Shown one piece after another: positions 19,910-21,050 of a DNA stretch of 21,376 nt; position 1 is the stretch's first letter; each line of letters opens with the position of its first letter. A program made the translations under genes and the position numbers. Under the pieces are notes generated by a model. That model was not told the DNA's origin and searched no databases. It saw only the letters and a program-made list of their open reading frames with translations. Source of the DNA: a virus; the IMG/VR virus record IMGVR_UViG_3300048772_000281, positions 1 to 21,376 of that record; one strand, 5' to 3'.

Positions 19910-20125
19910 ATGAGTGTCCCACACAAAACGACCAATCCAGTTGGCCGCCCGCTGACAGACGGCGTGGCGGCCACTGGCCACATCCACCTGCGCGTCGTGA
20001 TGGCGCGCAAGAACTGGTATGTGCGAATGGCACGGCTGCACAATCTGACATTGGCGGAATGGATGCAGCGTGTATGTGACGAGGCATCAGGCTACCCGCC
20101 GAAAGGTCAAAATGAGCGCGTATAA
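19910..20125 (+). CDS. Small ribbon-helix-helix-like DNA-binding protein
   Basis: This 71-residue protein has a flexible N-terminus (NPVGRPLTDG), then a short strand HLRVVMARKNWYVRMARLHN and a helix LTLAEWMQRVCDEASGY. Strand-helix-helix with an Arg/Lys-rich first helix resembles CopG/Arc-type ribbon-helix-helix proteins, which bind repeated DNA boxes as dimers. It lies 290 bp upstream of three evenly spaced GCGTGAC boxes and could be their ligand, which is inference. It begins 1 bp after the previous stop; no Shine-Dalgarno sequence is visible. Confidence 0.6.
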   Translation: MSVPHKTTNPVGRPLTDGVAATGHIHLRVVMARKNWYVRMARLHNLTLAEWMQRVCDEASGYPPKGQNERV

Positions 20126-20255
20126 TTTCAAGGATTTTCCACAAATCCGAAACCAGCTTGAAATCGTGGTTCTTCGCCATTTTCCGCTTTGGGCAATCCA
20201 TTTGGTCAGGATTTGGGTTAAGCTGGTAAAACGGCAAAAACGAGTAAAATGGTGA
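20112..20255 (+). CDS. Possible 47-residue basic amphipathic protein
   Basis: A short frame from ATG 20112 overlaps the preceding gene by 14 bp. It is hydrophobic in the middle (VVLRHFPLWAIHLVRIWVKL) and ends in a Lys/Arg tail. AAAGGT lies just before the ATG, one of few ribosome-site-like sequences here. It may be a real small peptide or chance. Confidence 0.35.
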   Translation: MSAYNFKDFPQIRNQLEIVVLRHFPLWAIHLVRIWVKLVKRQKRVKW

Positions 20256-20419
20256 AAAGGCTTGTAAATCGCATGAAATTTGGTGTCTGGCTGGCGCTGG
20301 GGACGTTTTTATTGGTCGGGCTTGGTGTTGACATGGGGGGAATTTGGGATTGGCGGGATTTGGGGGATTTTGCCGCGGGCGGGGAGTTTTTTCTCTGTAG
20401 TATGCTTCTGCTTGCGTGA
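20249..20419 (+). CDS. Possible 56-residue membrane protein
   Basis: A short frame from ATG 20249 overlaps the stop of the preceding small frame. It has a basic start (MVKRLVNRMK), one clear hydrophobic segment (FGVWLALGTFLLVGLGV) and a hydrophobic C-terminus (FFLCSMLLLA). A small lysis or membrane protein is possible. The G-rich DNA in the middle may mean it is only a by-product of that signal. Confidence 0.3.
   Translation: MVKRLVNRMKFGVWLALGTFLLVGLGVDMGGIWDWRDLGDFAAGGEFFLCSMLLLA
20335..20366 (+). other. Potential G-quadruplex motif
   Basis: Four G-runs of 6, 3, 3 and 5 bases are separated by 5, 6 and 4 nt, which meets the usual G3+N1-7 rule. It lies on the plus strand, about 50 bp before the first GCGTGAC box. 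Confidence 0.7.
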
Positions 20420-20464
20420 CGCTACGGCTTGCTACGCGTGACATCACACTTGACACGGCGTGAC
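20414..20464 (+). repeat. Three GCGTGAC boxes at exact 22-bp spacing
   Basis: GCGTGAC occurs at 20414-20420, 20436-20442 and 20458-20464. The first and third extend to the odd palindrome GCGTGACGC. A 22-bp period equals two helical turns, so all boxes face the same side of the DNA. The third lies between the -35 and -10 of the promoter at 20450-20478 and the second lies just upstream of it. They could be operators or replication iterons. Confidence 0.75.
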
Positions 20465-20478
20465 GCATGGTTTATGCT
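20450..20478 (+). promoter_or_regulatory. Near-consensus promoter for the replisome-organiser-like gene
   Basis: TTGACA (20450-20455) is followed after exactly 17 bp by TATGCT (20473-20478). Transcription would begin near 20485, two nt before ATG 20487, so the mRNA should be leaderless. A GCGTGAC box fills the spacer, so a protein bound there would block the promoter. Confidence 0.72.
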
Positions 20479-20486
20479 GTTGGAAT

Positions 20487-21050
20487 ATGGCATTTGTAAA
20501 ACTTGACTGCGGGATATTAGACTCAACAATCTGGCTTGACCGCGCTGCGCGGGAATTGTTCATCACGGCTTTGCTCATGGCGGAGCCGTTTGAATTGAGG
20601 GAACCGGCGAAACAAATCAAGGTCCGGTCTCTGGATGAAACGGGGTTTGTCGTGCCGGTTGGTTGGTATGGATTTGTCGCGGCGGCTGGCAGCGGCATCA
20701 TCCACCGATCCGGGATGGAAGCTGAAATTGGACTGGCGGCTCTTGAGCGTTTGGGAGAACCGGAGATGGAAAGCCGGACACCGGACTTTGACGGGCGAAG
20801 ATTGGTGCGTGTCTCTGGCGGTTTCATTGCGTTAAATTTTGCGAAGTATCGGGAGAAGGATCACACCAGCGCGGCGCGGTCAAAGCGTTATCGGGAAAAG
20901 AAACACGGCGGTCGGCGGCGGCGAGTCAACACCGGCGACGACGGCAAGGCACCGTCTGAAGCATTCATGGCGCGCGAACGGCGGGCGGTCAAAGCGGCGG
21001 ACAATGGCAACCAGGCATTGGCCGACAGCATCATTGCTGGTGACGCATGA
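20487..21050 (+). CDS. Replisome-organiser-like DNA-binding protein
   Basis: This 187-residue protein resembles the N-terminal region of phage replication or replisome-organiser proteins. It begins MAFVKLDCGILDSTIWLDRA, has a hydrophobic helix (ELFITALLMAEP), a middle that could form a winged helix, then a conserved-looking block (ESRTPDFDGRRLVRVSGGFI, ALNFAKYREKDHTSAARSKR) and a strongly basic RYREKKHGGRRRR patch near 140-152. The last ~35 residues are charged and disordered. Such proteins bind origin DNA and help load the helicase. I chose ATG 20487 because that beginning looks conserved and the promoter predicts a start there; GTG 20460 would precede the -10 box. The three GCGTGAC boxes just upstream fit an origin or autoregulatory site. 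The family call is recognition only. Confidence 0.72.
   Translation: MAFVKLDCGILDSTIWLDRAARELFITALLMAEPFELREPAKQIKVRSLDETGFVVPVGWYGFVAAAGSGIIHRSGMEAEIGLAALERLGEPEMESRTPDFDGRRLVRVSGGFIALNFAKYREKDHTSAARSKRYREKKHGGRRRRVNTGDDGKAPSEAFMARERRAVKAADNGNQALADSIIAGDA

Follow-up and report, generated by a model that had tools for sequence, protein, structure and literature searches.

A candidate phage replication origin combined with the operator of a putative initiator gene

In iteron plasmids such as R6K, F and P1, repeats at the Rep promoter or at the origin serve both replication and autoregulation. In phage lambda the repeats bound by the initiator lie in the middle of the initiator gene O itself, beside an unwinding tract (PMC7466680), and the SPP1 replisome organizer gp38 binds repeats both within the gene that encodes it (oriL) and elsewhere (oriR) (PMC6316719). 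The gene F0, near the end of the 21,376-nucleotide stretch of viral DNA analysed here (the window), and its relatives in other phages resemble each of these systems in part. Most relatives share the plan of lambda, with repeats inside the gene and an adjoining tract; the lambda iterons are symmetric, like the GTNAC boxes of the F0 family, and DnaB-type genes lie near the initiator in several F0 relatives. However, lambda iterons measure 19 bp, whereas the F0-family boxes measure 5–7 bp at 5–22 bp spacing; the lambda unwinding tract is AT-rich, whereas the tract adjoining the boxes in the window and its relatives is a G+C-containing hexamer repeat; and the conserved domain of F0 matches no O family. 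The in-gene repeats of lambda follow the DNA-binding domain, an arrangement from which the window copy departs, its array being upstream and inverted. Like gp38, the F0 family has one box cluster in its own gene and another at a second place, but the second SPP1 origin is about 13 kb away, whereas the F0 family has its second array at the promoter of the initiator, with the hexamer tract in one place only. Iteron plasmids put their repeats to a similar dual use, but these are regular direct repeats of about 17–22 bp, whereas the F0 family has no regular period outside the window, and F0 matches no known Rep family and no plasmid. The likeness to R6K raised in an earlier reading of the window (the original prediction) holds as a resemblance, but better models are lambda O and SPP1 gp38.

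Boxes, promoter and hexamer tract in the window

The original prediction described three GCGTGAC boxes with a 22-bp period and a TTGACA-17-TATGCT promoter with one box in its spacer, all of which are present. The copies occupy 20414–20420, 20436–20442 and 20458–20464, 22 bp from start to start, and the two that had been described as extended are the first and third, which read GCGTGACGC. Box 2 is just upstream of the −35 hexamer, and box 3 fills the 17-bp spacer between TTGACA and TATGCT, with the ATG at 20487 downstream. To these elements we add a hexamer tract immediately before box 1 that had gone unmentioned.

20401..20413, minus strand: hexamer tract TATGCTTCTGCTT (reverse complement AAGCAGAAGCATA), abutting box 1
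20414..20422, plus strand: box 1, GCGTGACGC; GTGAC core invariant in the clade alignment
20436..20442, plus strand: box 2, GCGTGAC; conserved in part within the clade
20450..20455, plus strand: −35 hexamer, TTGACA; TTGACH at matching distance in relatives
20458..20466, plus strand: box 3, GCGTGACGC; inside the promoter spacer
20473..20478, plus strand: −10 hexamer, TATGCT; spacing read from the sequence
20487..21050, plus strand: F0, proposed replication initiator of 187 aa, from comparison with relatives
21040..21044, plus strand: lone GTGAC box at the end of F0; one GTNAC in the 380–560 bp interval of L024, versus 2–8 in most relatives

The three-box cluster is not a product of chance. Dinucleotide shuffles of the window were scored for one identical 7-mer occurring three times at equal spacing, 8–35 bp apart, and such triples were present in 2 of 200 shuffles. 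The window itself has two, the boxes and a coding repeat near 2894; the latter region (2894–2930) holds a 12-bp spaced direct repeat (TGCCGTGGCC...) within a large virion-type coding region. GCGTGAC is not enriched across the whole window (6 seen, 3.3 expected), and only its clustering is unusual. The recurrence of GTGACGCATG at 21040–21049, also reported originally, was confirmed, but this is a lone box rather than an array, and it is probably incidental.

The position of the promoter relative to the gene recurs in other phages. Of the 74 relatives, 26 have TTGACH starting 34–38 bp ahead of the ATG, compared with 0.5% of control slots, and in 21 of these 26 a GTNAC box lies between TTGACH and the ATG. 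This recurrent −35 spacing with a box behind it suggests a transcript start at or near the ATG and repression when the boxes are filled; for F0 of the window, the predicted start falls within a few bases of the ATG, making the transcript nearly leaderless. A G-quadruplex-like run, GGGGGGAATTTGGGATTGGCGGGATTTGGGGG, is found at 20335–20366, just upstream of the putative origin; none was seen among the other relatives' upstream regions examined.

The F0 family and its box arrays

Relatives of F0 came from IMG/VR and four MAG contigs; the 74 distinct sequences, all from uncultured phages, comprised a first set of 51 and a held-out set of 23 added later. The closest MAG match comes from a Verrucomicrobiaceae contig (74%) and points to a possible verrucomicrobial host. 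Over its full length the 21-kb window is matched at 99.7% by a 73-kb contig, G001. Six members make up the window clade (L024, L026, L027, L028, L031 and L088; support 84/92). Across the relatives essentially no neighbour gene around F0 is conserved.

The F0 protein consists of a conserved domain of approximately residues 1–140, with a basic helix at 124–140, and a short C-terminal tail. An AlphaFold model (pLDDT 80.5) has its helices and strands in an order that suggests a winged helix, with helix 124–140 predicted at low to moderate model confidence; on our own reading the residue register of this helix does not suit a bZIP, and a bZIP-like interpretation was set aside. No match was obtained for F0 of the window among PHROG or Pfam profiles, for its sequence among solved structures, or by tblastn in annotated phages or plasmids, and a PDB fold search returned nothing significant. 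Fold searching with the predicted domain gave two strong matches, both to uncharacterised phage proteins, and the weak next-best viral matches included phage entries named 'Replisome organizer' and 'O protein'. F0 of the window does not match the O-family sequence profile and has no O-like C-terminal domain; among the relatives only L015 has a C-terminus of this kind, matching 'replication initiation O-like' (5e-16). The literature searched contained no description of the GTNAC box or of the F0 family. The best-supported reading is that F0 represents an undescribed family of phage initiators, working in the manner of the lambda O and SPP1 gp38 origins.

The box shared by the relatives is GTNAC, usually flanked as CGTNACG, and not GCGTGAC. 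In the 51 relatives of the first set its density is 2.18 per 100 bp at −100 to 0 and 3.49 at +400 to +500 from the ATG, compared with 0.08–0.42 in all other bins, and control words gave no comparable pair of peaks. The in-gene array, approximately 400–500 bp into the gene, directly follows the conserved DNA-binding domain of about 140 residues, and is itself followed, usually immediately, by a tandem GCAGAA/GCAGAT tract. Upstream boxes accompany the in-gene array in many relatives, and some relatives have arrays without a clear hexamer tract, or neither element. The original prediction had called for a search of related phages for identically spaced boxes before the gene. The boxes are indeed kept there, but the conserved unit is GTNAC/CGTNACG and their spacing ranges from 5 to 22 bp and more, the exact 22-bp phasing being local to the window. 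Two DNA-first scans for box plus hexamer recovered true arrays only beside F0, or at a contig end in L132; the non-F0 matches were ordinary coding sequence with no real arrays, and the idea that the signature is used more widely, apart from F0, was rejected.

A potential concern with the in-gene arrays is that they are translated: in most relatives arrays and hexamers read as VT..RD..AEAEAE, so that GTNAC and GCAGAA might be codon side effects of VT/RD and AE repeats forming a flexible linker. We consider this explanation extremely improbable, as it is already contradicted by three results. In-gene GTNAC number 163, compared with 100.6 (sd 3.9) in synonymous-codon shuffles, a conservative comparison in that codons of the array are part of the shuffled pool. 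In five relatives (L045, L050, L051, L054 and L062) the stop codon falls within the array and the hexamers come after it, which indicates that DNA rather than protein is kept. Finally, the same elements are found in non-coding upstream DNA.

Place and orientation of the array

The hexamer tract was scored under a strict rule of at least two GCAGA in 25 bp. Among the 51 loci it was in the gene on the plus strand in 34 and upstream on the minus strand in 7, never in both places (Fisher p=1.7e-4), and upstream on the plus strand in none. All six members of the window clade lack an in-gene array and have the tract upstream, where it is mostly invariant across the clade; L024, a window-type copy, and L026 have approximately 1.5 hexamers each, below the two-hexamer cutoff, and the window copy itself, with about 1.5 hexamers and three boxes, is classed as 'none' under the strict rule. 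Further upstream tracts occur in L074, L080 and the held-out L185, and another held-out relative, L263, has an in-gene tract on the opposite strand. In L133 a module of boxes and hexamers precedes a methyltransferase-like gene and lies about 860 bp from F0 on the upstream side; there are no boxes at F0 itself.

The upstream and in-gene copies also agree at the junction of tract and boxes. The in-gene junction of the relatives appears upstream of F0 in the window in reverse complement, as TTCTGCTTGCGTGACGC, and a 17-bp string, TCACGCAAGCAGAAGCA, found on the reverse strand upstream of F0 in the window, recurs without change at the in-gene junction of L013, L037, L040, L043 and L217; it is also exact in the upstream regions of L027, L028 and L074. 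The upstream tract at 20401–20413 is the counterpart of the in-gene (GCAGAA)n tract and is a possible unwinding or loading element. The best-supported reading of these comparisons, leaving aside the ancestral arrangement and the direction of change, is that in the window clade the origin moved and was inverted onto the initiator's promoter. The shift from gene interior to promoter would provide a concrete case in which an origin changes place and its initiator stays the same; the tree of the F0 domain is too poorly resolved for an exact count of such moves.

The placement of box 3 in the promoter spacer and of box 2 just upstream of the −35 hexamer would also be expected if the boxes were an operator and nothing else, with F0 now an autoregulator (or some other repressor on the boxes), control of transcription the sole role of the upstream boxes, and the real origin elsewhere. 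F0 of the window is short and without an O-like C-terminus, and the coexistence of upstream boxes with in-gene arrays in many relatives indicates that upstream boxes alone can be an operator. We regard this explanation as unlikely, because the upstream region of the clade has the hexamer tract and the exact junction of the in-gene arrays precisely where the in-gene copy is missing, because the module of L133 stands well apart from an F0 without boxes, and because no second cluster was found in a 70-kb relative. The GC skew of this relative, a check proposed in the original prediction, has no clear extremum at the site and was uninformative. In our assessment, positions 20401–20466 are likely to be both a phage replication origin and the operator of the initiator gene F0. 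The original suggestion of an origin or a self-repressing replication switch is supported by the boxes kept before the gene, by the in-gene arrays beside hexamers, and by the covariation of the boxes with F0 described below.

Box recognition, proposed function and surrounding DNA

We examined the base at the centre of the box in relation to the F0 residues. The G/C fraction at the centre covaries with residue 132 (Kruskal p=1e-6, 88 columns): S or A accompanies a high G/C centre, M a low one, and Q a mixed one. Residue 128 covaries as well, N being associated with 0% G/C at the centre. The covariation with residue 132 was unchanged after adjustment for G+C. With the hypothesis fixed on the first set, the held-out relatives gave 0.85 versus 0.40 for residue 132 (p=0.0055); they contain no N at 128, and the replication covers residue 132 alone. 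For the combined data (n=69) the association reached p=1e-8, and 22 of 24 disjoint close-pair contrasts agreed. After thinning to below 65% identity (n=23), residue 132 was not among the top five columns, and residue 2 likewise gave a biased contrast (22:4). A single helical turn separates residues 128 and 132 in the predicted helix 124–140, where the invariant R131 and R136 adjoin them. Because the box-centre base covaries with residues of F0, it is probably F0 itself that reads the boxes. The naturally occurring variants of initiator and box provide a candidate recognition code.

Recognition by another phage or host protein, such as a methyltransferase specific for GTNAC or the ribbon-helix-helix-like protein encoded at 19910–20125, appears very unlikely. 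GTNAC is a symmetric pentamer of the restriction-site type, a methyltransferase-like gene adjoins the module in L133, and G001 encodes several methyltransferases. However, the boxes accompany F0 across phages that share almost no neighbour gene, and the covariation is with F0. For the ribbon-helix-helix-like protein, one of two binders proposed originally, we found no support.

The mechanism that we favour is as follows. The conserved domain of F0, with basic helix 124–140, would contact the GTNAC boxes. Bound at the origin, F0 would melt the double strand within or next to the GCAGAA hexamers and recruit a helicase, in this phage probably the host's. On boxes 2 and 3 F0 would cover the −35 and −10 hexamers and shut off synthesis of its own nearly leaderless transcript. 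In most relatives the origin would lie in the gene, right after the DNA-binding domain, with more boxes at the promoter; in the window clade, where the gene is short and the in-gene array gone, an inverted copy of boxes and hexamers upstream would have merged with the operator. We infer binding, unwinding, helicase recruitment and repression from the conservation and position of boxes and hexamers, the exclusive location of the tract, the covariation and the recurrent −35 spacing. A broader proposal, for which we think the balance of evidence is somewhat favourable, is that an undescribed initiator family reads GTNAC boxes through a basic helix in which residues 128 and 132 select the centre, and that the origin is a portable, oriented module of boxes and GCAGAA hexamers that has moved between gene interior and promoter, flipping as it did so, in more than one lineage. 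It is rare for the replication origin of an uncultured phage to be identified, and a GTNAC array with a GCAGAA tract marks likely origins in dozens of phages.

Replication genes are found near F0 in several relatives: DnaB-like genes in L011 and L013, a DnaC-like AAA loader in L016, and a DnaB-like or primase-helicase ATPase in L015. A scan of 60 G001 proteins recognised no helicase and no polymerase among the families listed (25 of 31), and given the absence of a helicase among these families the window phage may use that of its host. G001 also encodes several HNH endonuclease matches, DNA methyltransferases, a restriction endonuclease-like protein and a RecT-type annealing protein.

F0 and the putative origin are present at both ends of G001 as an exact 1763-bp repeat (1–1763 and 70650–72412), which is either a contig overlap of strain variants or a real duplication. 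Beyond the repeat, the two copies differ by a transposase-like segment. Positions 20115–20250 of the window hold what is left of an ORF, a short N-terminal part; in the second G001 copy (L003 1–900) the ORF continues into a transposase-like protein, which resembles ISXO2/IS1595 by eye, and the ORFs scanned on the stretch gave no PHROG match. Near-identical CGCCATTT(T)CC sequences flank the difference of approximately 700 bp, which looks like a deletion between short repeats. From the ribbon-helix-helix-like gene of the window, a 164-bp stretch recurs at 94% identity in G001 (55885–56047).
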